DNA of 64,000 nt, taken from assembly GCA_964036195.1 (NCBI GenBank), contig OZ038450.1, forward strand, positions 18,664,701 through 18,728,700, read 5' to 3'. The notes under the pieces were generated by a model. It searched no databases and had not been told where the DNA came from. It worked only from the letters and a program-made list of their open reading frames with translations. Each line of letters opens with the position of its first letter. Within the stretch, counting starts at the first letter, position 1. The DNA is from Sphaerolaimus hirsutus. Taxonomy: Eukaryota; Nematoda; Chromadorea; Monhysterida; Sphaerolaimidae. The position numbers and the translations under genes are program-made. Below, piece by piece: positions 591 through 64,000 of this stretch.

Positions 591-1719
591 CAGAGTTGTT
601 AAAAGTACTGAACTTTTTCCAAGTAAACGTAAAGTATTTATTTTTTACTCACCACTAGGGTGTCAAATTTCCGTTTTCCGTTTTCCGTTTCCGTTTTCCG
701 CAGGCAAATTTTTTCCGTTTTCCGTTCCGTTTTCCGGCTGCTGAATTTTTTTTTCCGTTTTCCGTTCCGTTTTCCGGCAACTTTTTTTTCCGTTTCCGTT
801 TTTCCGGCTCATTTTCCGTTTTCCGGCTAAATTTTCAGTTTTTCCGCCTTTTTTCCATTTTCCGCCTCAATTTCCAGTTTTTCCACTTTTTTTCCATTTT
901 CCGCCTCAATTTTCCATTTTTCCGCCTCATTTTACCTTTTTCTGGCTCAACTTTCTGTTGTCTGATCAGCCAAACTGGTAAAAATTCATGCAGATTGTCA
1001 ATGATGTACAAAAAATTCCGTTTCCAGCAAAATTACTGCAAATTTTTCCCACTTCCAGCAAAATTTCAGCAAATTTTATCAGTTTTCCAGCAAAATTTCA
1101 CGATGTTTTTCCATTTTCGTGCAAATTTGATTTTTCCGTTTCCGTTTTTCCGGCCTCTTTTTCCGTTTTCCGGCTGCTGAAATTTTTTTTCCGTTTCCGT
1201 TTCCGTTTTCCGCCAAGTGCAAATTTTTTTCCGTTTTCCGTTCCGTTTTCCGGCTGCTGAAAAAAAATTTCCGTTTCCGTTTCCGTTTTCCGTAAAAAAA
1301 ATTTTTTGACACCCTACTCACCACTGTGTACAGAAAACGTAACGTAAATACTTTTTACTTTTACACTGCGTAAAACATGAGTAAAATACTTTTTATGGGA
1401 AAACGTAAAACGGAGTAGTTTTTCTCACAGAAAACGTAACATTCAGAAATTTTGTCAATTTTTATTCTAGAATACATCAAAGATGTCGTTTTTGTCCCGA
1501 TAAGTATTTCTCAGGAAAATGCCCTTTGAAAAAATTTCTGGCTGTCAAAATGTCACTTTGATTCTAGATTCAAATACGTTTTCGGTACACGCGTACTTTC
1601 AAAAAGTACACGAGTAAGTGCGCAGCGGTACTTTGTTCGAGAGGAAACGTAAACGTATTTAAGCAGTGCTTGAGTATACGTATTTATCAAGTAAACGTAA
1701 ATACGCTTTAACAACTGTG
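591..1719. mobile_element. hAT-like non-autonomous element, CAGAGTTGTTAAAA family, with a nested insertion
   Basis: The TIR is CAGAGTTGTTAAAAG on the left and its near-complement ending TTAACAACTGTG on the right. The 8-bp TSD TTGGACAC flanks it exactly (583-590 and 1720-1727). The interior repeats short motifs of the GTAAACGTAA and AAACGTAAATAC type. The element is split by a younger hAT-like insertion at 656-1316, so its own length is about 460 bp. It has no coding capacity. Confidence 0.85.
656..1316. mobile_element. hAT-like non-autonomous element, TAGGGTGTCAAA family, nested copy
   Basis: The TIR TAGGGTGTCAAA is perfect at both ends. The 8-bp TSD CTCACCAC is exact (648-655, 1317-1324). 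The interior is almost wholly pyrimidine-rich on this strand, with dozens of TTTTCCG/TTTCCGT units at both ends and a short unique centre (about 950-1110). Uninterrupted ORFs here (988-1260, 1079-1324) are products of the short repeat, not genes. Sister copies lie at 33554-34005 and from 63005 on. Confidence 0.9.
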
Positions 1720-1727
1720 TTGGACAC

Positions 1728-3441
1728 CCCAGGCCAGTCGAAGTATCTACATTACAATATTGCCACCGCCCACAAAACCCAACCGACTCACCCTCCTCAG
1801 AGAATATCAGGAAATCACCGCCATGAATGGAAAAAGGCCAGCTCTGGTAAATGGCAGATGTCGAGAAACAGCCCCAGCGCGTATAATACCTGAGGTCGTG
1901 AAGTGTCAAGTCAACTCGTGTCAAGTCGTGAACTCGAGTCAAGTCAAATGTACCTACACCATAAATTGTGCCTGCGCACACTAGTTCACAACCAAAATTT
2001 CAAAAACACACATATCCGCTTTGAACGCAGAATAAGTTATTTAAATCTCCGTCAACTATAGTTGACGGACACCTCATTCGAGAAAACTCAAATGCGTTCA
2101 AAACCAATTTAGGAGGTTTTGTAATTTCGGTTGAAAACTACCTACCTAGTTAAATAGTGTGCGCATAGTAGGGTATAAATAGCACATTACGATACATATT
2201 TATTTTAAGGATACCTGATCAGCCCATGAACGGGTATTACGATCGTAAACATAAAAATAGAATTGAACCCGCACAGGAAAAATTGAGACATTCAATGGCA
2301 AAATACTTACTCGAAGTAAAATCCAATCGATAATTCTATCAGGTAAATCGATGGACCAGTAGAAGCACAACTAGGTAAATAGATAGTGGAAAATTGTAGC
2401 TGGGCGTGTCTCCACCATCGCTTACTACTCAGTCCTCAGTAATCAGGAGCACAGTGGCTAAAGGGCTCAAATAAGCCTGGCTCTGATTAGAGCTCGGCTT
2501 GGACGTGGAAATACATTAATTATTCATCGCAAAAGTCGATTTTTATTATTTTACTAGCAATGCTGCAGCTTCGAACGCACACAATAATCGGAGTCGACAG
2601 ATGTTTTATGGGGAGTTTTAAGGCAAAATTGAACATTTTAACGTCTGATCGTACCTATTAAGCGACAAAATGATGTTCTCGTCACTAATCACGGGCCAAG
2701 CAGTAAGCAGGCACGATATTCTACCATCCGATGAAATAAATTGAGATAAAAAATGCCTGAATATCAAGGCGATCAAATAGACGAAACACGCATTTCCGGT
2801 TGAAATAGAAATTAGTCAACGCCATTTCTAACTGAGAGCACATCCGCGTGCCGCATCTAGAAAAAAAAGTGAACAAGCTTGCGCAGTATGGACGGCAGTG
2901 TGGACCCAGATGGCAATAACGTCAGTTTAAATTATTATTTTTTTGTGAATTCTATCTGTAATTGGTTGGTTGGTTCTGGAATTAGTGAGACACTGGAATT
3001 TCCCAGCCAGTGAATACCACCATAAACAGCATTTACTTAGTAGCCGCCATCCACTATTTTCTCCAGCGGAAAATAATATTTTAATTGAAATTTACCGTGG
3101 CATTTTTGCATATCTGATTACCTATTATTATTTTATTGCGTGTTGCATTAAAATTTACCATATCTCACCTGAAAAATGAACCAAACAAATATAACATTTT
3201 TCACTCACAACAATGAAAGCAACAACCAGGCACCAATTCTGCGAATAGACAGATAGAAACTCAAATATCAAGATAAACATTTTACAATTTTACAAAAATA
3301 TGAATTTCTATACAGTTGTACTAAAATTTTACAAAATTTCCTATTTTTATACAAATTTTGTATTTATTTTGAAATTTTCCATTTTACTTTATTTTATTCT
3401 TAAATTTTCCATTTTCTTATATTTTTCTGAGATTTTCTCAA
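1728..3441. other. No gene recognised; AT-rich sequence
   Basis: I see no convincing gene or element across this stretch. Minor structure includes a short cluster of GTCAAGTC-like words (about 1905-1950) and a small palindrome GTCAACTATAGTTGAC (2051-2066). From about 3285 to 3440 the sequence is very T/A-rich with repeated ATTTTCCATTTT words, like the tract at 55905-56225. Confidence 0.5.
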
Positions 3442-3670
3442 CCTGGTGCCAGTTCCGCAAATTGAGAAGTGAGAAGTAAAATGGAAAATGCGAAGTGAAA
3501 TGAGAAGTGAAATGGCAAGTAAATTGGCAAAAGCGAAGTAAAAATAAAATATAAAAAAGTAATTTTCCTTCGCTTTTGCCTATTTTCTTCTCAATTCACT
3601 TCTCATTTTTCATTTCACTTTGCATTCAGCATTTTATTCTCACTTCCCGATTTGCGGAACTGGCCCCAGG
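3442..3670. mobile_element. Foldback MITE with CCTGGTGCCAGTTCCGCAAAT ends
   Basis: The outer about 25 bp at each end are near-perfect inverted repeats (left CCTGGTGCCAGTTCCGC, right GCGGAACTGGCCCCAGG). The interior repeats GAGAAGTGAAATG-like words on the left and their complement (CACTTCTCATTT) on the right, so most of the element can fold on itself. Similar CACTTCTCATTT words open the TTGACATTT satellite near 13490. Confidence 0.75.
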
Positions 3671-4289: not shown

Positions 4290-4890
4290 TAGGGATGGAG
4301 AAAAGTTTTTCAATGACCCTGAGGTAAAAAACAACTGTTTTGTTTAAATAACGAGTCAACATCAGGGACGTACGCAGGATTTTTGAGCGGGGGGGGGCGG
4401 ATTGTATACGGAGCCTGGCGAACGGGGGGGGGGGCTTTGGCCCTTAAGTAAAGAAATGGAGCCATGGCGCTGGCGCCATTTGTAGGCGCCAACGCCATGG
4501 CAGTATTGGCGCTGGCGTTGGCGCCAACGTCTACTATATAGGTATCTTTATATACCTATATTTCGTACTAGAATCATGTTGGGTGCTTTTCATACGCTGC
4601 TAGGTACCTAAAAAATACATAGTAATCATTGGGTGGGTATATGCGCGCTTGCGCGCAACAAATTTTTAGAAGTGCCTATAAAATCGCTTTAGAAAAGTGC
4701 CATTTCTGGCAAATTTTTATGTCCGGCCCGGGAACGGGGGGGGCGCCCCCCCCCCCTGCGTACGTCCTTGGTCAACATATACAGGTCCTTTGTGAGAAAA
4801 GTGACGGTACTTTGTGATGTTAAATAGAGCCATACAATGGCTGTGGAGCCTGGGATAGCATTATACATAGTGATTTCCGTCAAAAATATC
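4290..4890. mobile_element. hAT-like element remnant (TAGGGATGG end) interrupted by another element
   Basis: It starts TAGGGATGGAG with T-rich, AAAACAACTG-type sequence inside. After the insertion at 4363-4770 the body continues with sequence (about 4815-4890) that matches, reversed, the interior of the complete element at 20217-20858 (CCATGGCTCCACAGCC and nearby words). I could not place its right end; the MITE at 4891 interrupts or abuts it. Confidence 0.5.
4363..4770. mobile_element. hAT-like non-autonomous element with CAGGGACGTACGCAGG ends
   Basis: The left TIR is CAGGGACGTACGCAGG. The right end reads CCTGCGTACGTCCTTG. The 8-bp TSD GTCAACAT is exact (4355-4362, 4771-4778). Inside both ends are runs of 8-12 G or C. 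A GGCGCC-rich block (4461-4532) forms several GGCGCCA palindromes. Fragments of the same family appear near 11258 and 18830-18905. Confidence 0.85.
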
Positions 4891-9606: not shown

Positions 9607-10115
9607 TACGGTTCAAACGGGATCCTGATCCCGAATCCCGAGAAATTTCGGGATTTAGCGGTCCCGAACCCGATCCCGAAACCTCAATCCCGATCCAGAT
9701 CCCGAAATTCCAAAAAGCCAATCCCGATCCAGAAAGTTTTCAAAACACAATCCAGATCCCGAAAAAATTTATACAATCCCGATCCTGAACAAAATTGCTA
9801 ACGTGTTTAAGTGACATTTTTGCACTAATAAATGTGAACGGAAACATCAAATGTCCACTTAATGCCACGTTTCTGGCATCCAGTGTTTTAGGCCATTTTT
9901 GTGAAAAAAATAAGCGAAAAACACGTATGTTAGGACCTTTTCTGAAATGCCAATCCCGATCCCGAAAAAATGCCAATGCCGGTCCCGATCCCGATCCCTA
10001 AACCCCAATCCCGATCCCGAAATCTCAAAAAACTAATCCCGATCCCGATCCCGCAAACTCAAAAATCCCGTTCAAAAATCCCGAAAACTCAAAAGTCAAT
10101 CCCGTTTGAACCCTA
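9607..10115. mobile_element. hAT-like non-autonomous element with ATCCCGATCCCGA subterminal repeats
   Basis: The left end is TACGGTTCAAACGGGAT. The right end reads ATCCCGTTTGAACCCTA (TIR TAGGGTTCAAACGGGAT, one mismatch). The 8-bp TSD CTAGGCAC is exact (9599-9606, 10116-10123). More than a dozen CCCGATCC/CCCGAA units fill about 200 bp at the left end and 160 bp at the right, around an AT-rich centre. It is in intron 3, 94 bp after exon 3. Confidence 0.88.
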
Positions 10116-10689: not shown

Positions 10690-11340
10690 GAAAATAGGCA
10701 ATAACATCCTAGATTTAGATGGAGTATCCTAGATTTTGGCGATCCGGGGGGTTAGAGGAAATCGCTCCTCTAGAGGGATAGATACCTGAAAAAAATTTTT
10801 GGTAAAATTGTGGGGTTTGGGGAGGGGGGGGGGTTACCGGGGTTCAATATACGGAGTTTTTCATGGCATAGAAGTAGGGATGGCCGAGGGGTTTTTTCAA
10901 AGGTTTTTTCAAACATTGTTGTTGTTTTTAAACCCAACCAGGCCGGGTTTTTTTTAAAATCAGGTCGTTGAAAAAAAAAACTTTTTCGACCGTCCCTACA
11001 TAGAAGGAAGAAAAGGGAGAAAAATCGCTAAAAGTAGGTTTAAAATAGGTGCTCAAAGCAGATATACAAGAACATATAGTGCTAATAATAGGCAATAAGG
11101 AACATGAACTAGTGATTTTGGAGGTGAAAATCTGAAAAAACGGTATGAAAATTGGCAATTTCGAGCAAACATTGGGGTATAATTTTTCAAAAATCGCTCC
11201 AGGTTGATAGATACCTAGCTGGGCAATTTGGGGTGGGGGTAGGTGATAGTAGTCAGCAGGGACGACATATGCAGGATTTTTTAACAGGGGCAGATTTTGT
11301 AGCGGCGGCGCCCCTCTGCCTAAAATTTTGCCTCCAGGAC
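10690..11340. repeat. Copy of the GATAGATAGCTG long repeat, left part
   Basis: This matches units of the array at 19203-22560: CCTAGATTTTGG start, GGGGTTCAATATACGG, AGAAAAATCGCTAAAAGTAG, AACTAGTGATTTTGGAGG, AAAAATCGCTCCAGGT and GATAGATACCTAGCTGGGC. The unit is cut at 11340 by the hAT-like insertion starting at 11341. It resumes at 15519. Confidence 0.6.
10875..10998. mobile_element. 124-bp hAT-like MITE, TAGGGATGG family
   Basis: TAGGGATGGCCGA at the left is mirrored by TCGACCGTCCCTA at the right. The TSD CATAGAAG is exact (10867-10874, 10999-11006). The interior is only GGTTTTTTCAAA-type and AAAAACTTTTT sequence. It is the smallest complete hAT-like element in the window. Confidence 0.82.
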
Positions 11341-11831
11341 TAGGGTTGGAAAAAAACGTTGTTTTTTAACTCGATGTTTTTTTTTTAAAAAAAACAACGT
11401 TTTTTTAAAATATCCATTTTCAATAAAAGCATTATAAGTGGTGATTTGTGTCAAAAATATCCACTTTTTGGCGACATGTTTGTATATTGCCTTATAGTTG
11501 AATGTTCGTGTAGTCAAATGTGACTTTAGGTGAAGTTTGGCACGGAATAGTGATGAAACAAGGTTATAAAAGGAGGTTTTTACCTTGGGAGTGAAGTTAC
11601 ACACTGTGGAGGTACATAGTTGTACATTACCTCAATATTATATACTACAGCCACATATGACAGCTTATTAACCCATGGTAGCACATAGAAATGGATGCTT
11701 TGATACTAAAATGCCACAAAACCAATGAAAACAACCACCAATGTCAATTTGTGTGTCAAATTGCGCGCCTGCGCGCAAAAAGTTTGCAAAATACCTAGTG
11801 CTTAGTACTAAAAATTTCGGCCGATGTTTTA

Positions 11832-12832
11832 ATCAGTAAAAAAATGGCTAAAGCCAAACAAAAAGTGGACGCTGCCTCCACAGCAAATAGACATGAAGTG
11901 TGTCTCTCAAATGGACATGAAGTGCATCTCTCAAATGGACATGAAGTGCATCTCTCAAATGGACAGTAATATATATTGGATGCACAAAAAAAATGTATCA
12001 TTGCTTAGAAAATGGAATACACTTCACTGATAAACCCACTTTACTGTGGTTACATATCCCACCTGAAAAAAGAAACTATTTGTATTACATCACAAGAGTT
12101 ACATGTATTGACTGTTAAATGCACAAAAGCAATAAATCATTACATCTGCATTGTGAGAAATGTCTCACATTGAACCCAGACATTTATTTATTCAATAGTT
12201 TTCAAGGCAGATTACAGTGTTAGACATACACATCCATGTAAAAAAAAGTTTCACACCCTTCAACTATCTGAGACAAAAAGGAAAAAATTCACTCAAGTTT
12301 ATCACAGCTGCGTGAGCTGTGCTATGTGTGTGTTTGAAACCAAAAAGCTCACGCTGCTATGATAAACTTGAGTGAATTTTTTTCCTTTTTGTCTCAGATA
12401 GTTGAAGGGTGTGAAACTTTTTTTACATGGATGTGTACGTCTAACACTGTAATCTGCCTTGAAAACTATTGAATAAATAAAAGTCTGGGTTCAATGTGAG
12501 ACATTTCTCAGAATGCAGATGTAATGATTTATTGCTTTTGTGCATTTAACAGTCAATACATGCAACTCTTGTGATGTAATACAAATAGTTTCTTTTTTCA
12601 GGTGGGATATGTAACCACAGTAAAGTGGGTTTATCAGTGAAGTGTATTCCATTTTCTAAGCAATGATACATTTCTTTTGTGCATCCAATATATATTACTG
12701 TCCATTTGAGAGATGCACTTCATGTCCATTTGAGAGATGCACTTCATGTCCATTTGAGAGACACACTTCATGTCTATTTGCTGTGGAGGCAGCGTCCACT
12801 TTTTGTTTGGCTTTAGCCATTTTTTTACTGAT
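11832..12832. repeat. 1-kb near-perfect palindrome
   Basis: Two arms of about 488 bp (11832-12319 and 12346-12832) are almost identical inverted copies around a 26-bp loop. Each arm contains three to four copies of a 24-bp unit (TGTCCATTTGAGAGATGCAC plus CTCA-type end), at 11888-11970 and 12698-12775. ORFs in the arms (12663-12875) are translations of this unit, with repeated CPFERCTS, and do not look like a gene. A single arm recurs at 32911-33475. Confidence 0.85.
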
Positions 12833-12913
12833 ATACTTCTTTTGTGTGGCCAGTGGCCCAGGCTTCCCCAAATGACACCCAGTAGGTGTCTTGCTGAACA
12901 ATGTATATGCTGG

Positions 12914-13082
12914 CGAGTAGATGGCGCCACTCCACAAAAATGGAGCCATTTTGGAGTAGATGGCACTGCCGTTTTGGAGTAGATGGCACCACTCCATGAA
13001 AATGATGCCGTTTTGGAGTAGTTGGCGCCACTCCATGAAAATGGCACCGTTTTGGAGTAGCTGGCACCACTCCATAAAATTG
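12914..13082. repeat. 39-bp minisatellite GGAGTAGATGGCACCACTCC
   Basis: There are about five units. Each starts GGAGTAGNTGGCRCCACTCC, continues with ATGAAAATGRYRCC and ends GTTTT; one unit is shortened. Each unit contains a small inverted repeat (GGAGT/ACTCC). It directly follows the palindrome arm, as in the second copy at 33474-34032. Confidence 0.8.
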
Positions 13083-13554
13083 CACAATTTGAAATCATAA
13101 CCCTTGAAGACCCATATAGTGGCAGTATCACATCAAACAGCACTATATTTTGATCAAAAATATGCAACCCATAACTTGGATGTGGGCCAAGTTTATATGT
13201 GACTGGGTGAATTTCATCCTACAAATATCGGCTGGCATGGTGCCAACGGGTGCCAACAATATTTGCATATGCTATGTGTTAAATGACATATCCAAAACTC
13301 ATTGAGAAATGTCTCTTAAATGAAATTGGTCCACCATTAAGAGTTAAGGAGTGTATCATGCTTCTATGTACAACTCATATTTGTGACAATAGCATGATGT
13401 GTCTGTTCACAAAAAAAATTGACTAGAAATATGGATCACAGTTCAGTATCAATTTATCAAAGTTTTTCAATTTAATTTTTTACTTGCCATTTCACTTCTC
13501 ATTTGACTTTTGCCGATTTTCTTTGCAATTCACTTCTCACTTCTCTTTTTACTT
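13083..13554. other. Unassigned sequence between minisatellite and satellite
   Basis: I see no gene. From about 13478 the sequence becomes rich in CACTTCTCATTTGAC, TTGCCGATTTTC and CTTGCCATTTCAC words, resembling the arms of the foldback MITE at 3442-3670, and merges into the satellite. Confidence 0.4.
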
Positions 13555-14817
13555 GCCATTTGACTTGACTTTAGACTTGACATTTATAACTTGACATTTG
13601 ATATGATATTTGATCACTTGACATTTAACTTGACATTTGATATGACATTTACCACTTGTAATTTGACTTGACATATGACTTGTTATTTGACTTGACTTGA
13701 AATTTGTCACTTGACATTTGACATGACATTTATCAGTTGACATAAAACTTGACATTTGACTTGACATTTGACATGACATTTATCACTTAACATTAAACTT
13801 GACATTTCACTTGAAATTTATCACTTGATGTTAAACTTGACATTTGACATGACATTTATCACTTGACATTAAGCTTGACATTAAACTTGACATTTGACAT
13901 GACATTTATCAGTTGACATTAAACTTGACATTAGACTTGACATTTGACATGACATTTATCACTTGACATTAAACTTGACATTTAACTTGACATTTGACTT
14001 GACATTTCACTTGAAATTTATTACTTGACATTTCACTTGAAATTTATCACTTGGCATTTGACTTGACATTTCAATTGAAAGTTATCACTTAATATTCACT
14101 TTGACATTTATCACTTGACATTTGACTTGACTTGACTTTAGACTTGACATTTATAAGTTGACATTTGACTTGATATTTGATAACTTGACATTAAACTTTA
14201 CATTTGACTTGACATTTATCACTTGAAATTTGACTTGACATTTATCACTTGAAATTTGACTTGGCATATGACTTGATATTTGACTTGACATTTATGAGTT
14301 GACATTAAACTTGACATTTCACTTGAAATTTGTCACTTGACATTTGACTTGAAATGTGTCACTTGACATTTGACTTGACATTTGACATTACATTTCACTT
14401 GAAATTTATCACTTTACATTTGACTTGACATTTGACATGACATTTATCACTTGACATTTAACTTGACATTTCAATTGAAATTTATCAGTTGACATTTGAC
14501 TTGAAAGTTATCACTTGAAATTTGACTTGATACTTTATCACTTGATATTTTATAACTATCTATCACTTGACATTTATCAATTGACATTCCACTTGAAATT
14601 TATCACTTGACAATTATCACTTGACAATTATCACTTGACATTTCACTTGAAGTCTACCACTTGACATTTATCACTTGATATTTGACTTGATATTTTATCA
14701 CTTAATATTTTATCACTAGACATCTATCAATTGACATTTATCACTTGACATTTGACTTGACATTTATAACTTGACATTTGACTTGACATCAACCACTAGA
14801 CATTTATGACCTGATAG
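13555..14817. repeat. TTGACATTTGACTTGAC satellite, short divergent array
   Basis: This is 1.26 kb of 12-14 bp units: TTGACATTTGAC, TTGACATTAAAC, TTGACATTTATCAC and TTGAAATTTATCAC. Order and sequence are more variable than in the 34-48 kb arrays, and no long higher-order period is evident by eye. It lies inside the composite element 11341-15518. Confidence 0.9.
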
Positions 14818-15470
14818 TAATCAGCATGCAAGGTCACATGCTCAGTATCACATGAAGCAGTAGTTCAGGGATGTTTGCGCATTTTACACAAAATAAGCAA
14901 ACTTGAATAACTTTTGTAAATCTGTACCAAAATTGCCAAAAATTGGCTCATTTGAAAGCTATAGTCATGGCACACATCAACAAATTTTTTTTATTGCCCC
15001 GTTTGTATTCAAATTTTAAATTTATTGAGGTTTGAAAATTTCAGACAGATACCGTACCAAAGTGGGCGGAGCCTGTGAAAAAAAATCCCGAAAATAAGAA
15101 ATGGCATCATATTCTCTTTCAAATGAGCCATCAACCATGAAAATCGGTCGTGTTTCAAGGAAGTTATTGCAGTTTGAAGATTTTCGGGAGAACAAGAACA
15201 ACAACAACAACAACAAGAACACTACTTGAAAAAGAAAATGCGTAATAACTTCCTCCGAACTCAACCGTTGGATCTGAAAATTTGCATGGTGGTACTTTTC
15301 GACACGGGCTTTTTAATGGTGTAGTCGGTTCTGCACTAGCGCATTGCGTTCCGAAGTTATTGCGATTTTAAATTTGCGATATCCGCATTTTAGTGTGTCT
15401 GACCATATTATGGGTGGGTCGCTTGCGCCCTCCCTCGGCAGCGAGGGATGGCGCTGGCGCGCCCACCCGA
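14818..15470. other. Right part of the insert in the composite element; terminal hairpin
   Basis: No gene is recognised. 15180-15225 contains an AACAACAACAAC-like microsatellite. At 15411-15468 GGGTGGGTCGC and GCGCCCACCC, with an inner CCCTCGGCAGCGAGGG hairpin, make a GC-rich stem just before the sequence returns to the hAT-like body. A related GTGGGTCAC...CCTCCCTCGGC stretch is at 30942-30970. Confidence 0.4.
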
Positions 15471-15518
15471 AAAAAAACATTTCGGATGTCATGTTTAAAA
15501 AAACATCGGCCAACCCTA

Positions 15519-20216: not shown

Positions 20217-20858
20217 TAGGGTTGGCCGATGTTTTTTTTAAACGTTTTTTTTTTTTAAAACATGACGTCCGAAATGTTTTTTTTTAAAAAAAAACATCGG
20301 CCGAAATTTTTAGTACTAAGCACTAGGTATTTTGCAAAATTTTTGCGCGCAAGCGCGCAATTTCACACACAAATTGACATTGGTGGTTGTTTTCATTGGT
20401 TTTGTTGCATTTTTAGTATCAAAACATCCATTTCTATGTGCTACCATGGGTGAATAAGCCGACATATGTTGCTGTAATATATAATATTGAGGTAATGTGC
20501 TTCCATGTACCTCCACAGTGTGTAACTTCACTCCCAAAGTAACAACCTCCTTTTATAACCTTGTTTGATCACCATTCCGTGCCAAACTTTACCTGAAGTC
20601 ACGAACATTCGACTATAAGGCGATATACGAACGATATGTCGACAAAAAATGGATATTTTTAACACAAATCACCAGTTATAATGCTATCCCATGGCTCCAC
20701 AGCCATTATATGGTCATATTTAACATCACAGAGTATTGCCAGTGTCTGATATACCTATATATGTTGACACTAGGTCATATCTGGGAGCTTTTAAAAAAAA
20801 ACGTTTTTTAAATAAAAAAAACATGGAGTTAAAAAAAAACGTTTTTTTTCCAACCCTA
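20217..20858. mobile_element. hAT-like non-autonomous element, TAGGGTTGG family, complete copy
   Basis: The left end is TAGGGTTGGCCGATG and the right end TTCCAACCCTA. The TSD GGTGAGGT is exact (20209-20216, 20859-20866). Subterminal sequence is made of AAACGTTTTTT/AAAAAACATCGG units that form local hairpins. The interior has GCGCGCAAGCGCGC and CCATGGCTCCACAGCC words shared with pieces at 4815-4890, 11700-11830, 24650-24780 and 50900-50980. This copy shows the uninterrupted structure of the composite at 11341-15518. Confidence 0.88.
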
Positions 20859-28439: not shown

Positions 28440-28764
28440 GTGTGGTTCACACTGGCGATAAGCCAGTGATATTTGGAGCGTGCCACTGTCAAAAGGGTTG
28501 GCACACAGATAGTGATGTGAAAAGTGCCAGACTTTTGGTGCCAAGCGCCAAAAGCACCATGGCGCTTTTGGCATGTGTAGTGCCAAGCGCTGTTATGCTG
28601 CGGTAACGGCGCCATTTGTTTTTAGTATATTTCTATTCATTTCCTACTGTAGGTTTGAATTTCTGGTTTCATGCCCCCCTCACTTATGCTTCACACACGC
28701 CACAGTGCCATTGCGACATCACGTGTGACTTTAAAATGTGCCTGTGCACAAGGGCGTTTTATAC
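28440..28764. other. Short stretch with a GGCGCC-type cluster
   Basis: No gene. AAGCGCCAAAAGCACCATGG and GCGCTTTTGGC near 28540-28620 resemble the ends of GGCGCC-type hAT elements, but no TIR/TSD pair is visible. Confidence 0.35.
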
Positions 28765-30217
28765 TAAACACCTTCCCAGACAAGTTCACCACCCATTTTT
28801 TTATTTCACTTCGGATGCAATATCTCCATCCATGGGGGTGTTATAAAGCTGAAACTTTGTATATATAAAGGTGTAAGACCGCCCTACTCCCCAACAATGG
28901 GTGGAGGTGCGGCGACTCACTACAGGGTGGGTCGCCCTATATGCAACCATTTTTTTTGGCGTTTTTGGTGTCCCAACCAAGTTCACCACCCACTTGATTG
29001 GCTACACTACAAAAGCCATATCTCCAGTTGTGATGGTGGTAGAAAGCTGAAATTTGGGGGATGTCTTGCCAACAACCCCCCTCACAATACACCAGTGGGG
29101 CGGCTGCCGACGACCCACTAAAGCATGGGTTACTGCAAATAAAGTTGACCATTTTTTTGAAAACAGCCCAGGTGTCCCAAAAATAGTTCACCACCAAACT
29201 GCATTATAAAAATGTTGCAACAACATACCTAATATAAAACTGAATCCTGTTGGAACCCTAGTTCAGCCAAAAAAAAATTTTTCACTGGGGCACCCACCCG
29301 TCCCATAAACAGTTGACTGAAAATTTCACTTTAAACCAATTTTTCCTTTCACACTTAAAAAGTTGGTTTACAAAGTTCACTAGAGAAGGGTCTAATGTTC
29401 AAAGTTATGTAAACAACATATCCTCCAAAATGTATCCATAAGGAAATTTACTTGGGGTGAATTCTATAATGTCAAAATGATATCATTGCAGGAACAAAAT
29501 TTGACAAAATTTTCACGTTTTCATTCACCCCAAATAAATTTCATTATGGTTGCATTTTAGAGGTTATGTTGTTTACATAACTTTGAACCTTAGACCCTTC
29601 TCTAGTGAACTTTGTAAACCAACTTTTCAAGTGTGAAAGGAAAAATTGGTTTAAAGTGAAATTTTCAGTCTACTGTTTATGGGACGGGTGGGTGCCCTAG
29701 TGAAAAAATTTGTTTTGGCTGAACTAGGGTTCCAACAGGATTCAGTTTTATATTAGGTATGTTGTTGCAACATTTTTATAATGCAGTTGGGTGGTGAACT
29801 TGTTTTGGGACACCTGGGCTGTTTTCAAAAAAATGGTCAACTTTATTTGCAGTGACCCATGCTTTAGTGGGTTGTCGGCAGCCGCCCCACTGGTGTATTG
29901 TGAGGGGGGTTGTTGGCAAGACATCCCCAAAATTTCAGCTTTCTACCACCGTTACAACTGGAGATATGGCTCTCGTAGTGTAGCCAATCAAGTGGGTGGT
30001 GAACTTGGTTGGGACACCAAAAACGCCAAAAAAAATTGTTGCATATAGGTCGACCCACCCTGTAGTGAGTAGCTGCACCTCCCCAAATTGTTGGGGAGTA
30101 GGGGGGTCTTACATCTTTATATATACAAAGTTTTAGCTTTATAACACCCCCATGGACGGAGATATTGCATCCGAAGTGAAATTAAAAAGTGGGTGGTGAA
30201 GTCCGGGAAGGTGTTTA
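28765..30217. mobile_element. Foldback element, TAAACACCTTC / GGGTCGCC family, copy 2 (complete)
   Basis: The ends are TAAACACCTTCCCAGACAAG and TCCGGGAAGGTGTTTA. The arms are about 700 bp with the centre near 29490, and stay closely matched throughout (CAAGTTCACCACCC, GTGGGTCGCC, AACCCCCCTCACAATAC and their complements). It is the longest uninterrupted foldback in the window. Paired ORFs at 28937-29197 and 29791-30048 are the same arm read on opposite strands. Confidence 0.85.
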
Positions 30218-31043
30218 TTATGGGTGTTTTTTACATGCATTTGTGGAGGCACGTTTTCGTAGGCCTCACCAGTTCTGTTTCCATCACCAGCCAACTTTTT
30301 CCATTGGCTGGCAGTCAATGTATTCACTTTTTGACTTTTAAATATTTTCTTAAGAATCTACCTATTTATGATTATTTTTCCCCCAAATTTATGATTATTT
30401 TTCCCCCAAATTTCTACTATTTGTGAAACCGATTTCGCTCAATAAATAGCGCCGGTTTAGAAATTGGGCCCTGGAATTCATTTGCAGCACTTGCCTAAAC
30501 TCAATTAAGTGTAGTTCAGCCGCCGCTCATCAATCAACCAACCCCCACCAAGCAAAATTCAATGACCGCAACTACGCAGCCTTAACAGCACCAATGGCGA
30601 CACAGCAAAATAGCGCCAAGCGCCAAAAGTGCCATGGCGCTTTATTAGACCATGGCATCAGGCGCCAATGGTGCCAGAGGATGTTGGCGCCAAGTGCCAA
30701 TAGTGCCAGCACCAAAAAAAATCTGCTGCTCATAAAGTGCACCCATGCTATTGCCGTGGGTCTTATTCATTGAAGATGTAAGTTTTAGTAAATTCCAGTC
30801 AAGTTTTGTTCTTCTTGTCATGTTTGTTTTTACAGCTGGGATTTTGGGTTAATGCTTGAAAAAGAGATAAGAGTTTCATGGATACTGTATATTTCATTTT
30901 TTACTGTGTATTTCAGCATTTTTGTGTGTCAGCTATTATGAGTGGGTCACGTGTGGCCTCCCTCGGCTGTCGCATCACCTCCCCCCAAATTGGTGGGATA
31001 CATTCATCTTCTGTGTGTGCTACACACAATCAAAAGTCGTATT
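30218..31043. other. No gene recognised; GGCGCC cluster
   Basis: At 30595-30715 a set of AGCGCCAAGCGCC, AAAGTGCCATGGCGC and GTTGGCGCCAAGTGCC words occurs without a clear TIR. 30370-30410 has a direct repeat of TTTATGATTATTTTTCCCCC. Confidence 0.4.
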
Positions 31044-31334
31044 GGCCTGACACACTCTAGTTGACAATGACACCCAATGTCAACTGGTTCTGATCCCAAT
31101 TCAAAGCTTGCTCATGAGTAATACTACAAATGTTGTATTCACATATTTATACTTCAAGCCGGCCTTGTACATTGTACATACCATATTTTTTTTACATTAC
31201 AAGCCAACTTCATGTGCAACATTTTTAATGCAACACTCTGCATTTTAACACCATTTGTCAGCTCGTCAGCAAACTTTGAATTGGACTGGGAACCAGTTGA
31301 CACCAGGTGTCATTGACCTAGTGTGTGTAAGGCC
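31044..31334. mobile_element. Foldback MITE, CACACNCTAGTTGACA family
   Basis: GGCCTGACACACTCTAGTTG on the left pairs with CCTAGTGTGTGTAAGGCC on the right. Inner GACACCCAATGTCAACTGG pairs with CCAGTTGACACCAGGTGTC. The central part is longer than in the copies at 49669-49830 and 50165-50337. Confidence 0.75.
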
Positions 31335-33475: not shown

Positions 33476-34032
33476 AGTAGATGGCGCCACTCCACAAAAA
33501 TGGCGCCATTGTGGAGTAGATGGCACTGCCGTTTTGGAGTAGATGGCACCACTTAGGGTATCAAATTTCCGTTTTCTGTTCCGTTTTCCGGCAACATTTT
33601 TTTCCGTTTCCGTTTTTCCGCCTCAATTTACCTTTTTCTGGCTCAACTTTCTGTTTTCTGATCAGCCAAACTGGTAGAAATTCATGCAGATTGTCAATGA
33701 TGTGAAAAATTTTCTGTTTCCAGCAAAATTACTGCAAATTTTTTCTACTTCCAGCAAAATTTAAGCAAATTTTATCCGTTCTCCAGCAAAATTTTAGCAA
33801 GTTTTTCCATTTCTGTGCAAATTTGATTTTTCCGTTTCCGTTTTACCAGCCTCTTTTTCTGTTTTCCGGCCGCTGAATTTTTTTTGCCATTTCTGTTTCC
33901 ATTTTCCGCCAAGTGCAATTTTTTTCCGTTTTCCGTTCCGTTTTCCAGCTGCTGAAAATTTTTTTCCGTTTCCGTTTTCTGTAAAAAAAATTTTTTGACA
34001 CCCTAGCGCCACTCCATGTAAATGATGCCGTT
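33474..34032. repeat. 39-bp minisatellite, second copy, split by a hAT-like element
   Basis: GGAGTAGATGGCGCCACTCC-type units run from about 33474 to 33553 and resume at 34006-34032. They are interrupted by the element at 33554-34005. The TTGACATTT satellite follows immediately at 34033. Confidence 0.75.
33554..34005. mobile_element. hAT-like non-autonomous element, TAGGGTGTCAAA family, copy 2
   Basis: The ends are TAGGGTATCAAATTTCCG and TTTTTTTGACACCCTA. The TSD is GCACCACT/GCGCCACT (33546-33553, 34006-34013, one mismatch), and it lies within a minisatellite unit whose uninterrupted form is known next door. Subterminal TTTTCCGTTT units match the copy at 656-1316. Confidence 0.85.
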
Positions 34033-52331: not shown

Positions 52332-53222
52332 TAGTGATGGAATGGCGCCATGGCGCTGGCGCCATTTGAGGGCGCCAAAGGGCGCCGCGCCATGGCGCCA
52401 TTGGCGCTTGGCGCCCTTTTTCTGTGGCGCCCTTGGCGCCTGGCGCCCACTTTCTGAAAGGCGCCATGGCGCCCTTTCTCCGTGGCGCCCTTGGCGCCTG
52501 GCGCCCTGCCCTAAAAGGGCGCCAAAATGGCGCCAGCATGGTTTCAAGGTGAGTGCTGCGTGAATGAATAAAAAAGAAAAAAACGGGTATGTGAATGATC
52601 AAAATTCACTGGAAAATAGACAAAGTGGTGTGAGTGGATGTATATGTTTCATCCAATTTTTATCAGATGCGTGTAACGGATCAGAAGCTGAGCACGATAG
52701 ACCGGTGAACTCGCAAACTCGTAAATCGACGGATTAAAATTATCGGAATCCCGTTGTCGTCCGCTTCAAGAAAACATATATTGGAAAATCTATTTGATGT
52801 GCATTCATTGTTTTGTCGAATGAGAATTTTCAAAGTGTTTGAAGTGAATATCACGTGTGAGTACGGTTTTTGCACAAAAGTTTGTTGCTAGTCTCATTTT
52901 TGCTGATTACATCCTGGAGAACATGAATAAAGAAGTGAATGTGTGCACTACAGTGCTGGAGATGCATTTTTAGCACACGCAGGGTATTCTACGCGCTTTT
53001 TTATTCTGGCGCCATTGGCCCTTCTTTTCAATTGGCGCCATGGCGCCCTTGGCGCTTGGTGCCCTCTTTCCGTGGCGCCCTTGGCGCCTGGCGCCCACTT
53101 TCCGAATGGCGCCATGGCGCCCTTGGCGCTTGGCGCCCTTTTTCTGTGGCGCCCAGTTTCCGAATGGCGCCATGGCGCCATTGGCGCCTGGCGCCCTTTT
53201 TTCTGGCGCTTTTCCATCACTA
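52332..53222. mobile_element. hAT-like non-autonomous element, TAGTGATGGAA / GGCGCC family, copy 1
   Basis: The left TIR is TAGTGATGGAATGGCGCCA. The right end reads TGGCGCTTTTCCATCACTA. The TSD AGCCATCT is exact (52324-52331, 53223-53230). Both subterminal zones (about 200 bp each) are crowded with GGCGCC palindromes. The centre (52540-52960) is AT-rich and shares sequence with 63350-63700 (GTTTCAAGGTGA, ATTCACTGGAAA, TGTTTCATC, GATCA/GAAGCTGAG), possibly a relic of transposase coding DNA. Long frames such as 52102-52602 translate only the GCGCC repeats. Confidence 0.9.
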
Positions 53223-54155: not shown

Positions 54156-54968
54156 CAGAGTTGTTAGAATTACTGAACTTTTTTAAAAGTATATGTAAAC
54201 GTAAAGTATTTATTTTTTACTCACCACAAAGTATCGAAAACGTAAAATACTTATTTTTTACTTGTACGCACGCGTAAATGTGAGAACAAAATTTTTTTCC
54301 CATTAAAATGCAAAAGCGAGCACTTTTCTTCATAGAATATGTAGAACTGGGTACGTTTTTGAAATACAACCCTCAAAATGGCCCTACGAATAAAATAATT
54401 GACCCCCTGTCGAAAGCCCCTCCCCCCAAATTGAACGTAAATGGAACGTAAATATTAAAACCTTCAGTTTGTGTTCTGTGAAATGCAGAACACATGTTTT
54501 AACAATGACCAAGTCACGTTAGAACAGGGTATATACCATCTATATTTACATATTACATATATATGTAAGTCAATAAAAAACTCTTATACATGGAGCTTGT
54601 TGTCGCATGTTTATACCTCAGCATATGTTACAAAGAACGAATTAGTGCTTAAGAGTTCTGAAAAATTCTGGCAAAATAAAAAAAACCCTCGAAATACCCG
54701 CCCTTGTTTAACTCCCCTCAAAATTTTCACTATAATACAATCACTCCCAGGGGTATTTCGAGGAAATATAGTAAATTGCAGCGTAGTCACCTTATAAATA
54801 TGTGCCAAATTGAATTCACAGAAATACATTTTCTTTACGCGTATGCCTCAAAAATGTACGCGTACATGTGAGTACGTTACTTTTTTTTCAAGTATATGTA
54901 AACGTATTTACCGCGTACTCGCGTACGCGTATTTTTCGAGTAAACGTACATACCTTTTAACAACTCTG
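54156..54968. mobile_element. hAT-like non-autonomous element, CAGAGTTGTTAAAA family, copy 2
   Basis: The ends are CAGAGTTGTTAGAATTACTG and ACCTTTTAACAACTCTG. The TSD CCTGACAG is exact (54148-54155, 54969-54976). Subterminal GTAAACGTAAAGTATT and GAGTAAACGTAC units match the copy at 591-1719. A MITE (about 54478-54773) lies inside. Confidence 0.88.
54478..54773. mobile_element. CCGTATTTCCTCG-family MITE, decayed, nested
   Basis: GCAGAACACATGTTTTAAC and TCACGTTAGAACAGGGTATA match the copies at 27951 and 55700. The right end reads GTATTTCGAGGAAATATAGTA. The left TIR is not clear, so the start is approximate. Confidence 0.55.
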
Positions 54969-55904: not shown

Positions 55905-56225
55905 TATCAGGGTTAGTTTTAGTAAAATTCTTTTTACTAAAATTGTATTTTATTTTTATTAAAATTGTATTTTATTTTTATTTTATTTGTCAATTTTACA
56001 TTTTATTTTTATTTTATTATTCAATTTTTGATTTTATTTTTATTTTATTTTTATTTTTTATTGTAGTTTATGACCAGGATTGGTTTGAGTAAAATTCTTT
56101 TTACTAAAATTGTATTTTATTTTTATTTTATTCTTCAATTTTCCATTTTATTTTTATTTTATTCTTCAATTTTCCATTTTATTTTTATTTTATTTTTATT
56201 TTTTTCTGAGATTTTGCCAACCCTG
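55905..56225. repeat. TTTTATTTTTATTTT tract, duplicated
   Basis: Two related halves begin GGTTAGTTTTAGTAAAATTC (55911) and GGATTGGTTTGAGTAAAATTC (56076). Each continues with long T/A repeats broken by CAATTTTCCATTTT. The hydrophobic Phe/Ile/Leu-rich ORFs here are composition artefacts. A similar tract is at about 3290-3440. Confidence 0.75.
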
Positions 56226-58607: not shown

Positions 58608-59603
58608 TAACGATGGCAAAAAAAGATTCGAAAATTCGAAAACGTTTTCGAATTTTCGAATTTTTTCAGAATTTTCGAATTTTTATTTCACCCCTGGAAA
58701 AAACACTTAAAAATCGATTTTTTTCTTCAAAAAATTCGAAAATTCATAAATTCGAAAATTCGAAAATAATTTTCGAATTTTTCAGGGAATTGGAGGCCAC
58801 AAAACACATTCTTACATTAAATGTGATAATTCAATCAACAATTGATATGAGGTGTGTCTGAAAAACAGTAATCTAAAGAAGAATAACATCAAAAAAGTGT
58901 TGTAATGGTGTCTGCAGTGGACCCGACAAGTCCGTTGAGGAACACTCAGCATACTCTTGCTGTGTGTTAAGCTAGTTCTGCTAAAACAGACACCACTCCA
59001 TCAAAAAAATTGGCCTTGAGTTGTTGTTGCAAGTTGTTGAACAGATCACTGTCTGACAGGTCCATCAGTTGCCACTTTCAGTTCCAGATTCTGTAAAATG
59101 CCCTGTAGAATGTCAAATGTCATGCAAAGTGTCGACAGTAATGTAAAATGTCAAACTTATTTGTGCAAAATTTACTCAACCATACAAAATAACAGTGAAA
59201 ATACTGTATTTCCTCAAAATACCCCCTCAATTTTTTTCAGAGTGACACTCAGACCTGAGGGGTATTTCAAGGGAAAGGGGCTAATGCAAGGAGGGGTGGG
59301 GATATTTCCATCAAATACAGTAAGTTCAAAAAAGTTATCCAAACATGAAAACAGTTCAAATACTGTTTTTAAAGCTTCAATTTCAATATTTTCTCAAAAA
59401 AATTCGAAAATTATTTGAAAAATTTTGAAAACTAGCCAAAAAAATTCGAAAATTGTCCAAAAAGATTTGAAAATTCAAAAATTCGAAAATTAAATTCGAA
59501 ATTCGAAAATTGATTTGAGGAAAAATTCGAAAATTCGAAAATACAGTTTGGAAAAAACACTTAAAAATTTAAATACTTTTTTTCGGAGGGTTTGCCATCG
59601 TTA
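58608..59603. mobile_element. hAT-like non-autonomous element, YAACGATGGC family, TTCGAAAA type
   Basis: TAACGATGGCAAA on the left and TTTGCCATCGTTA on the right. The TSD CTGACTGC is exact (58600-58607, 59604-59611). Both ends carry repeated ATTCGAAAATTCGAAAA units. The opposite arm of the host foldback holds the uninterrupted target (CAGCAGTCAGGTTAG near 62480). A small MITE lies inside. Confidence 0.9.
59202..59322. mobile_element. CCGTATTTCCTCG-family MITE, nested, 121 bp
   Basis: The ends are TACTGTATTTCCTCAAAATA and TTCCATCAAATACAGTA. GGGGTATTTCAAGGG and GGAGGGGTGGGG lie inside. Confidence 0.7.
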
Positions 59604-60774: not shown

Positions 60775-62137
60775 CAACGATGGCAAAAACACACATATTA
60801 AATACGGAAACTCAATGAGTTTCCGTGTTTTTGTTTAACACGGAAACACGGAAACTCAGCAATTTTGAAAAACACGGAAACTCAAATGAGTTTTTTTTCA
60901 GAGAACACGGAAACACGGAAACACAGAAAATACGGAAATGTTTTTTGAGTTTTTTTCAGGCACATGATTTGAACTGAACAATGTGAGTATGAACATACAT
61001 AATGTATGTGTGTATAGTATTTTTATATGTATTTACATGAGTCAGTTAATCAGGCTCTCAATAAACATGTTTATGATCAGCTGACATGATTTTTGCAAAA
61101 GAATGTGATGATTTGATGAAAAAAAAAGATTTTGCTGCTGTCAAGTTTTGGTGTGGTTTTGGAGACAAGGCGGTGTACTTAGCATGCCAGTGTCCACTGA
61201 CAGTGTGGAGGGTCCCTTAAGCCAGTGCCCAGGATATTGGGCGCTAGGCATCTCCATATGAACCCATTTTCTTTTGAACGTGATTTTTTGTTGAAATTAA
61301 ATATGGGATGGGTAAGTAGTTCAGATACGTTGAAGGCTTCAACGATGTGCATGTTCAAGTATAGTTGCATTTTTATCACACAGTACAACATACAGTGCAC
61401 ATCTATTGAAGTATTTTATTGTATACTCGGCTTACTTTACACCTTGCACGCGTGGTTCCAGCTGGAAGTGTGCCAACGATGGTTAACGCGTGCGAGTTTC
61501 ATAAAAAGATGACAAAATTGATTGTTGTTATAGTGTGATTTATTAACATATACACATCGATGAATTTTTTTCATCTTTTTACAGAAATCACATGATTTAA
61601 TGATCATTGGCACGCTTCCAACACAAGACGTAAATCAGTGCGAGGGCAGAGTATCATGTACGCCGAGTATACAGTGTGAATTGTCATTTTTTTGACATTT
61701 TGTTGATGCTTATGCTGTGGAGTGGACATGCTTATTTTTTGATTTTGTGGACTGTAGTGGACATTTTTGTGGACTTTTTGACACATGAACAAATATGCAG
61801 ATCCTCGATATGTGGAACATCTATATCAGCAAAACCTATAGAAAAACCTATATACAATATGAAAACCCCTGTTTTCACATCAAAATGCTGTAAAATGCAA
61901 CTTTTTGTTAGAAAACTTGAGTTTTACCACAAAAACTTGAGTTTTTACTAAAAAACTTGAGTTTTTACCAAAAAAACTTGAGTTTTTACAGGAAAACTTG
62001 AGTTTTTTCAAAAAACACTGAAATAAAACACGGAAACTCAAGTTTTTTTCATGAAAAAAACTCAAAACACAGGTATTCATGTTTGAAAAACTCAAAACAC
62101 AGAAAGTGTTTTTTATTTGAGAACTTACCCATCGTTG
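60775..62137. mobile_element. hAT-like non-autonomous element, YAACGATGGC family, ACGGAAAC / ACTTGAGTTTT type
   Basis: CAACGATGGCAAAAACAC on the left and GAACTTACCCATCGTTG on the right. The TSD GCTATACC is exact (60767-60774, 62138-62145). The left subterminal zone repeats CACGGAAACTC (60805-60945). The right zone repeats AAAACTTGAGTTTTTAC about every 18 bp (61912-62020), then AAAACTCAAAACACA. A 240-bp MITE sits inside. It shares its TIR with the element at 58608-59603 but has different internal motifs. Confidence 0.9.
61432..61671. mobile_element. 240-bp MITE, TATACTC...GAGTATA family, copy d
   Basis: TATACTCGGCTTACTTTACA and GTACGCCGAGTATA are the ends. The orientation is as in copy c and it is about 90% similar by eye. 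It is nested in the hAT-like element 60775-62137, itself nested in a foldback. Confidence 0.85.
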
Positions 62138-62695
62138 GCTATACCCGCAAGTGACACCTTTGGTGGGTCGCTGGCGCCCGCCATTAAGTGTACAGTAAGG
62201 GGAGGGGTGTCGGCTATATCCCCCGAAGTAAGGGGACCAGTTTCAGCTTTGTCCTGTCTGCGTTTCTGGAGTGACGGCACCCGAAGTGATGAAAAACCAC
62301 TGGGTGCCAGACTTGACGCGGACAGTGAAAATCTGTAAAAAAATTTGCGCGTATACGGCGACCCACACTTAGGGGGGTCGCCATCGCCCCTGCGTTGGAG
62401 TATAGTAGGGGGGAATGTCGGCTACGTCCCACCCAAATTTCATCTCTTAATTCCCCCCACAGCGGGAGTTATGGCGTCAGCAGTCAGGTTAGAAACTGAC
62501 TGCCGGACCTGATCCGAACGCAGTTTATGACGGCCGGAAAATGCTCTCGACCAATGCGAAAAACGAACAAGCGCAGTTGCATTTTTTGAGATAGCTTGGC
62601 GCCAAAATTTTTAGGCTTTCGTAAAAAATTTGTCATGGCAGAAAACCAGCACATATTGTGGTGCCAGAAAACCATCATCTATATGTTCAATTACA

Positions 62696-62983
62696 CTTTA
62701 TTCGCTTTGGTGTAAACGAAACGAAGGGACGACACCCCAAAAACTGTCACAGCCACTGGGCGACGTTTTGACACTGTTGGAAAACTACCTGCGGGAAAAG
62801 AAGCTCGCAACTTTCCGCTACTTGATGATAGGGAACAGATCAGACAATGTCTTGGATTATGTCGCCAATTACAGTGTGGACTGCATCGGTATGAGTTTCT
62901 TCTACACGCCTGAACGTGCCAAAGTGGTGCAATATTCGTACACGGTTATGACGAGTTGGTTTGGGCGCTTAACACGATTTTAA
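62696..62983 (+). pseudogene. Possible ionotropic-receptor-like ligand-binding fragment
   Basis: The frame (open from 62630) reads, from about 62780, as a non-repetitive protein: LLENYLREKKLATFRYLMIG, then DNVLDYVANYSVDCIGMSFF, then YTPERAKVVQYSYTVMTSW, ending with TAA at 62981-62983. The pattern of an acidic residue after a variable loop, then T-P-E-R-x-x-V-V-x-(F/Y)-(S/T), resembles the second half of the ligand-binding domain of ionotropic glutamate receptors and the variant IRs of arthropods. In those families a pore segment should follow; here the frame stops and a hAT-like element begins at 63005. It may be one exon with an unseen donor or a broken copy. A start within the region is not assured. 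Family assignment is by motif memory only. Confidence 0.4.
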
Positions 62984-63004
62984 AGATTGATGTGCAGTAG
63001 GTAG

Positions 63005-64000
63005 TAGGGTGTCAAATTTCCGTTTTACTACCACTGAAATTTGTTTCCGTTTTCCGGCCACTAAATTTTTTTCTGTTTCCGTTTTTCCGACTCATTTTCT
63101 GTTTTCCAGCCAAATTTTAAATTTTTTATACCTTTTTTCATTTTCCAGCTCAATTTTCTGTTTTTCCACAGTAGTGATAGAATGGCGCCATGGCGCTGGC
63201 GCCATTTGAGGGCGCCAAAGGGCGCCGCGCCATGGCACCATTGGCGCTTGGCGCCCTTTTTCTGTGGCGCCCACTTTCTGAAAGGCGCCATGGCGCCCTT
63301 TTTTCCGTGGCGCCCTGCCCTAAAAGGGCACCAAAATGGCGCCAACAGGGTTTCAAGGTGAAGGCCGAGTAAACGGCAAAAAAATAAAAAAAGCGCCCGT
63401 GGATAATCGAGATTCACTGGAAACATGGACGACGTAGTCCCAGTGGATGGAAATGTTTCATCTAATGATTCAGCAGACACGTCTCATGGATCAAAAGCTG
63501 AGAATAATCGACTGTTGAACTTGCAAACTCGTAAATCAACACATTCAAATAATCGTAATTTCGTTTCCAGCCACTTCAAGAAAACATCCATTGGAACCAT
63601 ATGTTTAAAGTGGATGCATCGTTTTGTCAAATGACAATTTCCATTGCGTTTTAGGTGAATGTGTGAATGGCTGAATTTCCATCGTGTATGAATTGATGCA
63701 AAAAAAAATTCTGGCGCTTTTCCATCACTATTCCACAGTTTTTCCATTTTCCGGCTCAATTTTCGGTTTTTCTGCCTCATATCCCTTTCTTCATGCTCAA
63801 CTTTCTATTTTCTGTTTCATTCAGCCAAACTGTTAAACATGCATGCATGTTTTCAATTATGTGATTTTTTCCATTTCCATTTCCAGCAAATTTCAGCAAA
63901 TTTTTTTCCATTTTCCGGCAACAATTTTTTTCTGTTTCCATGCAAATTTCATTTTTCCGTGTTCCATTTTCCGGCATTGATTTCCGTTTTCTGGCTGCTG
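63005..64000. mobile_element. hAT-like element, TAGGGTGTCAAA family, copy 3 (runs off the window)
   Basis: It starts TAGGGTGTCAAATTTCCG, followed by TTTTCCG/TTTTCTG units as in the copies at 656 and 33554, and continues after the nested element (63172-63730) to the window edge. The unique centre (CTCAACTTTCTATTTTCTG, CAGCCAAACTG) matches 940-980. The right end is outside the window. Confidence 0.85.
63172..63730. mobile_element. hAT-like non-autonomous element, TAGTGATGGAA / GGCGCC family, copy 2
   Basis: TAGTGATAGAATGGCGCCA and TGGCGCTTTTCCATCACTA are the ends. The TSD TTCCACAG is exact (63164-63171, 63731-63738). The left 180 bp is crowded with GGCGCC; the right zone is short. The centre includes a 70-codon frame (63425-63634, starting MDDVVPVDGNVSSNDSADTS) that aligns at the DNA level with the broken centre of 52332-53222. 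It may derive from coding sequence of an autonomous parent, but I recognise no transposase motif. Confidence 0.9.

Follow-up and report, generated by a model that had tools for sequence, protein, structure and literature searches.

A stretch of 64,000 nucleotides from the genome of the nematode Sphaerolaimus hirsutus (contig OZ038450.1, C1:18664701-18728700; assembly of 348 Mb in 762 contigs), here termed the window, contains hAT insertions of several families in which a dense array of one short word lies just inside the terminal inverted repeats (TIRs). In five of these families, characterised by the words TTTTCCG, ATCCCGA, GGCGCC, TTCGAAAA and ACTTGAGTTTT/ACGGAAAC, subterminal arrays above every shuffled version of the same sequence are confirmed. 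The insertions are flanked by 8-bp target-site duplications (TSDs), the arrays recur in independent copies, the same pairs of TIR and motif surround remnants of hAT transposases elsewhere in the genome, and under one constant TIR the motif itself has changed. The arrays probably represent clustered binding sites for the hAT transposase of each family. A preliminary description of the window had reported such families and had proposed that each uses sites for a different transposase or host protein, in arrays that expand like minisatellites; its observation is confirmed with corrections and its interpretation is partly supported.

The termini of hAT elements consist of a short TIR with A at position 2 and G at position 5 (YANNG). 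A strict scan of the window that imposed these termini and required at least 10 of 12 matching TIR bases returned 410 pairs, of which 10 were flanked by flush exact direct repeats of 8 bp; the corresponding numbers at 5, 6, 7, 9, 10 and 11 bp were 1, 2, 0, 0, 0 and 0, with 44 at 4 bp. Duplications matching at 7 or more of 8 positions were observed at 13 pairs, against 1.2 predicted from offset registers. The hAT pattern of the ends is imposed by the scans, and the excess of flush repeats lies at length 8. A relaxed scan gave 22 rows, from which 12 insertions with exact duplications (starting at 591, 656, 4363, 9607, 10875, 20217, 52332, 54156, 55908, 58608, 60775 and 63172) and three with one mismatch (11341, 28510 and 33554) were accepted, those at 10875 and 55908 being the least certain. 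The 13 insertions previously claimed, 11 exact and two with one mismatch, fit within this corrected set. Seven candidates, starting at 11723, 25439, 27590, 51351, 53463, 55337 and 60721, were dropped for poor termini or implausible size. The window has no match in Rfam.

Arrays were scored as the commonest non-overlapping 7-mer in the two 200-bp stretches just within the ends of each element and compared with the maximum of 300 first-order shuffles. The top 7-mer reached 25 against a shuffle maximum of 10 in the TTTTCCG type, 14 against 7 in the ATCCCGA type, 28 against 6 in the GGCGCC type, 16 against 10 in the TTCGAA type, which carries the TTCGAAAA arrays, and 13 against 8 in the ACTTGAGTTTT/ACGGAAAC element. 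Among 400 random window pairs, two had a top word of 13 or more. The AT-rich word of the element at 55908-56225 also exceeded its shuffles (7 against 5), as did those of elements at other loci taken from the genome (designated by L numbers), namely ATATCGA in L069 (18 against 11) and AAACGTA in L062 (10 against 6). No excess was found in the window copies at 54156-54968 (5 against 5 in shuffles) and 20217-20858 (6 against 6), nor at 4363-4770 (3 against 4), where homopolymer words were uncounted and G/C runs were therefore unscored. The suggestion that each type carries its own dense motif consequently holds for five families, or four of the seven entries originally made, and is too strong as a general statement, since in their window copies the entries for GTAAACGTAA, AAACGTTTTTT and the G/C-run element stay within the range of shuffles. 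A sister family, with the TIR CAGAGTTGGAAA/CAGAGTTGTGCA, does have a true GTAAACGTAA array (4 of 4 ends).

Arrays are common to independent copies of one family, a conclusion supported by searches of the genome in which the best 40 candidates per query were scored, so that the copies are biased toward the query. For TTTTCCG, all scored matches besides the window's own copy stood at 94% or above. Exact 8-bp duplications flank 27 of 28 copies (one being that of the window) and all 27 are different; the 27 simple copies contain 34-43 TTCCG words, the reverse form CGGAA is absent from all 28, and the remaining locus (L003) is one copy inside another. Seven of seven GGCGCC copies have exact duplications and 29-34 words, and the eight TTCGAA copies have five exact and three one-mismatch duplications with 6-19 words. 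The ATCCCGA matches ranged from 76 to 100% identity; both ends were located in 18 of 30 loci, with five exact, six one-mismatch and seven worse duplications. All 40 scored matches of the CAGAGTTGTTA family were full length, and one retrieved copy has an exact duplication; the CAACGATGG family was scored in the same manner. Copies with different duplications therefore share their arrays, and the 8-bp duplications persist when genome copies are compared. Across all loci, mostly picked by family searches and hence not a random sample, TTTTCCG lies inside 61 of 63 TAGGGTGTCAA ends and TTCGAA inside 28 of 29 TAACGATGGCAAA ends; TAACGATGGCAAA and CAACGATGGCAA differ at the first base, yet carry TTCGAAAA or ACGGAAAC/ACTTGAGTTTT.

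The assignment to hAT transposons is borne out by coding remnants within elements that have the same TIRs and motifs. A profile search of the genome for the hAT dimerisation domain (PF05699) gave 28 matches, and the typed peptides of five loci matched the profile over its cut-off. Nineteen of the 28 matches lie within TIR pairs flanked by duplications of at least 7/8: nine in TTTTCCG elements with ends TAGGGTGTC/TAGGGTGTCAA (L059, L060, L063 (7/8), L064, L078, L079, L080, L083 and L086), in all of which the coding strand carries the word; seven in TTCGAA elements with ends TAACGATGG/TAACGATGGCAA (L071, L072, L074, L075, L076, L082 and L084); two in AAACGTA elements with TIR CAGAGTTG (L062 and L065); and one in an ATATCGA element with TIR TAGGGTTCAAAC (L069, duplication 7/8). 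Among the other nine, L066 has both TIRs with a duplication of 3/8, L061 has the left end only, and L067, L068, L070, L073, L077, L081 and L085 show no clear TIR pair around the domain. At approximately 1.0-1.95 kb, these elements are remnants rather than full-length transposons. The dimer peptides represent separate lineages: those of the TTTTCCG type compare with those of the ATATCGA type at 51%, and either of these compares with the TTCGAA and AAACGTA types at 27-33%. Pooled pN/pS (nonsynonymous against synonymous change) of the dimer-domain open reading frames (ORFs) is 0.50 for six loci and 0.23 for five, values based on too few changes, in loci selected by profile search, for the ORFs to be regarded as conserved small proteins. 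The TTCGAA elements of L074 and L075 (contig C626) lie approximately 3.8 kb apart with one duplication, CATACAGG, in both, and are probably one tandemly duplicated insertion.

That the motif changes while the architecture stays is most apparent at the 13-mer end TAGGGTTCAAACG, which occurs with three words, ATCCCGA, ATATCGA and GTCCCG. Fourteen TAGGGTTCAAACG copies shorter than 600 bp contain 188 ATCCCGA words and no ATATCGA, whereas L069 contains 23 ATATCGA words and no ATCCCGA; the ATATCGA state is also found in L066, L067/L068, L070 and L081, with an exact duplication around the copy at 80-842 of L070. GTCCCG is represented by a 139-bp element in L078 with the exact duplication GTCACGTA and 7+1 words, and this third state rests on little because it is the one complete GTCCCG element seen. 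Over all loci, 41 ends with this TIR divide into 29 with ATCCCG, six with ATATCGA, three with GTCCCG and three with none. The word just inside the TIR changes together with the array: the bases that follow TAGGGTTCAAA are CGGGAT, CGATAT or CGGGAC, each matching the array word when read from the opposite strand, with the exception of the right end of L069, an ATATCGA element in which CGAGAT follows. A milder shift is seen at TIR TAGTGATGG, where 15 of 20 ends have GGCGCC, one AGCGCC and four none, and at TAGTGATGT, where three of six ends have AGCGCC, one was called ATATCGA and two have none.

The arrays also change by units over time, without being hypervariable. The anticipated minisatellite-like expansion does not apply to the TTTTCCG family, in which 25 of 28 copies (the best matches to the query) measure 659-663 bp, and the idea of the arrays as pure minisatellites was rejected on this basis. 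Other families are more variable: word number per element differs among copies in ATCCCG (14-31), TTCGAA and GGCGCC arrays, indels of unit length recur in ATCCCGA copies (6 bp) and in the TTCGAA set, and 11 of 16 indels of at least 4 bp in the latter fall within arrays (GGCGCC was left out of this indel comparison, its rows mixing both orientations). In the CAACGATGG family, which carries ACTTGAGTTTT/ACGGAAAC, the 3' part, 468 bp long in the copy of the window, ranges from 406 to 509 bp, and the 5' part is stable.

Substitutions in 27 TTTTCCG copies (L003 dropped) affect 9 of 4312 cells at non-CpG motif sites against 271 of 11031 outside, and 9 of 4150 against 82 of 4716 when T and C positions of the ends alone are compared, the motif sites having been defined on the consensus and the cells sharing ancestry rather than being independent. 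Of 2156 cells at motif CpGs, 75 are changed, 70 of them by C>T or G>A; outside the motif, 29 of 324 CpG cells are changed. This pattern would fit germ-line CpG methylation together with constraint on the word. The observed/expected ratio of CpG is higher in the ends than in the middles of several elements (2.34 against 0.77, 3.17 against 0.16, 1.62 against 0.60 and 2.18 against 0.82), with no enrichment at GGCGCC ends (0.91 against 1.14). Eight of the 11 element types have CpG in their top word, as do 83 of the 400 random pairs, a difference that is suggestive, the types not being independent; the idea that all words contain CpG was rejected, as three of the 11 top words lack it.

The TIR of maize Ac is 11 bp long and of the TAGGG type. 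In the established scheme, the TIR is where a hAT transposase cleaves, and specificity comes from its N-terminal zinc finger, which recognises short subterminal repeats that differ in sequence among hATs (PMC3260210, PMC3143072, PMC8097297, PMC10368747). Ac/Ds elements produce 8-bp TSDs and have clustered AAACGG subterminal hexamers bound by the transposase, and their non-autonomous members keep both TIR and hexamers (PMC3260210). On its opposite strand the TTTTCCG array contains AAACGG, with 22 occurrences in the two 200-bp ends (11 at each end, where at least three within 200 bp would suffice for an Ac/Ds-like end), while the other families use other words. In contrast to Ac/Ds, the arrays described here are denser (34-43 TTCCG per 661-bp element) and in one orientation, and several families, each with its own word, share one genome. 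In Herves of Anopheles, the short motif CG(A)ATTCAT, present at both ends, is required by the transposase for binding and is enough on its own, and motifs differ among hAT transposases (PMC3143072), although Herves has few motif copies and is a single family. The BED domains of Hermes bind many scattered AAGT/AAGC subterminal repeats (PMC10368747); there, however, the word has four bases and approximately 70% of activity is kept after the inner repeats are mutated, whereas the words described here are packed head to tail. The hAT-derived CGG-binding proteins combine BED and Hermes-type domains with individual specificities, often for CGG or GCGC and in some cases AT-rich, and four hAT motifs defined by protein-binding microarray match their own subterminal regions (PMC8097297). 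The proteins were measured in that study; in the present case the DNA ends are observed and the proteins are missing. The present families fit this scheme. They extend it in that so many families occur together, their arrays are extremely dense, the TTTTCCG and ATCCCG words keep a single orientation at both ends, and the word changes under a constant TIR.

The window elements are best explained as non-autonomous members of several hAT families, or miniature inverted-repeat transposable elements (MITEs). Their ends are bipartite, with a short TIR as the site of cleavage and, next to it, repeated copies of a single short word. The array would form a cluster of sites for the DNA-binding domain of the family's own transposase, many weak contacts together providing family-specific recognition, and would be homogenised and kept by selection for mobility. 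Several observations weigh against this reading. No zinc-finger partner was found next to the remnants: a zf-BED search of the genome gave eight matches, with no PF05699 match inside 2 Mb of any of them, such that of the autonomous partners sought, remnants with the same TIR and motif were found, and DNA-binding domains matching these ends, or a full-length transposase, were not. In addition, Ac is reported to need three hexamers (PMC3260210), far fewer than these arrays provide; the ATCCCG words and the TTTTCCG words have the same orientation at both ends while the TIRs are inverted, although end symmetry predicts a mirrored layout; and in the CAGAGTTGTT family of the window, GTAAACGTAA is sparse, with at least three words inside only 1 of 12 ends (two further ends were called TTCCG, most likely because a TTTTCCG element is nested in the window copy). 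The shared ancestry and consensus-defined sites of the substitution test count in the same direction.

Alternatively, the CpG-dense arrays could be platforms at which DNA is methylated or a DNA-binding protein of the host attaches, acting in silencing or expression rather than in transposase binding. Both the CpG-rich ends of several elements and the predominance of C>T and G>A at TTTTCCG motif CpGs, the mark expected of methylated CpG, agree with such a role; however, GGCGCC ends lack this enrichment, top words without CpG occur, and a single factor leaves both the different word per TIR and the word switch inside the TIR unexplained. Methylation of the arrays is, moreover, also compatible with transposase sites, and a host-factor or methylation role in place of transposase binding is considered unlikely. 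A purely neutral origin, in which slippage or unequal exchange expands any short word near a TIR without a role in binding, is judged similarly improbable: the variable word numbers, unit indels and 3' length range described above are as it predicts, but not the uniform length and conserved motif sites of the TTTTCCG copies, nor the single word shared by both ends and the TIR-internal copy, which change together. The mutations that gave rise to the arrays may nevertheless well have come from slippage. That low-complexity sequence has been taken for motifs is, as a general account, very hard to maintain. It draws on the three entries that do not exceed shuffles, for which it stands, and on the rare random pairs with high-scoring words, but it is refuted for the five strong families, which exceed all 300 shuffles and are common to independent insertions.

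Subterminal repeats are known to be read by hAT transposases, and a family that acquires a new word has to alter dozens of sites at once. A tentative and rather doubtful proposal is that the recognition word behaves as a cassette that can be exchanged: under a conserved TAGGGTTCAAACG, the complete arrays of the two ends, along with the word at the inner TIR edge, would be swapped as a unit, so that families split in specificity while their cleavage sites stay the same and every word retains CpG. The principle of subterminal repeats is already known and the new part is word switching under a constant TIR, of which a word search of a limited open-access library, covering titles and the beginnings of abstracts, returned no description. 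Three words behind one TIR in one genome, some with transposase remnants, make co-evolution directly testable, and the families offer a set of natural end-specificity variants.

The window elements lie on the plus strand unless marked otherwise. The hAT insertion at 591..1719 (TIR CAGAGTTGTTA, sparse AAACGTA, exact TSD TTGGACAC) belongs to a family with at least 40 genome copies (query 54156-54968) and hosts a nested TTTTCCG MITE at 656..1316 (TIR TAGGGTGTCAAA, 40 TTCCG and no CGGAA, exact TSD CTCACCAC). A second copy of the TTTTCCG family lies at 33554..34005 (TSD 7/8; 33607-34005 matches 911-1316 at 90%). The third, at 63005..64000 with its TIR at 63005, is truncated by the window edge and, with similarity to the family at 63045-63169 and 63761-64000, is split by a nested second copy of the GGCGCC family at 63172..63730 (exact TSD TTCCACAG; matches 52332-52849). 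The GGCGCC MITE at 52332..53222 has TIR TAGTGATGG, arrays of 30 copies and exact TSD AGCCATCT. The ATCCCGA MITE at 9607..10115, which has genome copies, has TIR TAGGGTTCAAACG and exact TSD CTAGGCAC; the MITE with TTCGAAAA arrays at 58608..59603 has TIR TAACGATGGCAAA, exact TSD CTGACTGC and copies in L089-L096; and the MITE with ACGGAAAC and ACTTGAGTTTT arrays at 60775..62137 has TIR CAACGATGG and exact TSD GCTATACC. The last contains a 251-bp insert (61421-61671), spanned by 4 of 40 scored genome matches, which is one of four copies of a repeat of approximately 250 bp (also at 51431-51683, 53235-53487 and 60387-60634) with TATACTC-type ends adjoining TA.

Further MITEs are located at 4363..4770 (TIR CAGGGACGTACGCAGG, G/C runs, exact TSD GTCAACAT), with relatives that have their own TSDs in L037 and L044, and at 54156..54968 (TIR CAGAGTTGTTA, AAACGTA words, exact TSD CCTGACAG). 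A short hAT-like MITE without an array lies at 10875..10998 (TIR TAGGGAYGGYCG, exact TSD CATAGAAG), and a probable hAT MITE with an AT-rich array at 55908..56225 (TIR CAGGGTTRG, 8/12; exact TSD GTCATTAT), with CAGGGTTGG elements at other loci. Two elements share TIR TAGGGTTGG: the MITE at 20217..20858 (minus strand; weak AAACGTTTTTT-like words, exact TSD GGTGAGGT) and the hAT element at 11341..15518 (TSD 7/8), in which 11428-11830 matches 20291-20685 reversed and which bears an interruption of approximately 3.5 kb with a palindrome and satellite. A probable hAT element at 28510..31630 (minus strand; TIR TAGTGATGT, TSD 7/8) has AGCGCC words mostly at its right end, inside which AGCGCC occurs 8 times and GGCGCC twice.

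Large near-perfect palindromes lie at 28785-30200 and 11832-12832, with arms of 678 nt at 95% and 415 nt at 99% complementarity. A diverged 14-kb satellite at 34033-48322 is composed of TCACTTGACATT-like units (TRF periods 12, 26 and 38), which also form a 1.2-kb patch at 13547-14805, within the TAGGGTTGG element that is interrupted. Three repeats of a 46-bp unit lie at 40138-40275 and again at 48538-48675, and GATAGATAGATAGCTGAGCAGC arrays occupy 20947-22530. The ORF at 62615-62980, with no match in a PDB search, resembles by eye part of an ionotropic glutamate receptor and has a weak SBP_bac_3 match (E 0.0072). At other loci (L033, L034 and L053), CAGGGGTCTCC-ended elements with 8-bp duplications carry GATAGC/AGATAG words and are perhaps a further hAT family, one without CpG.

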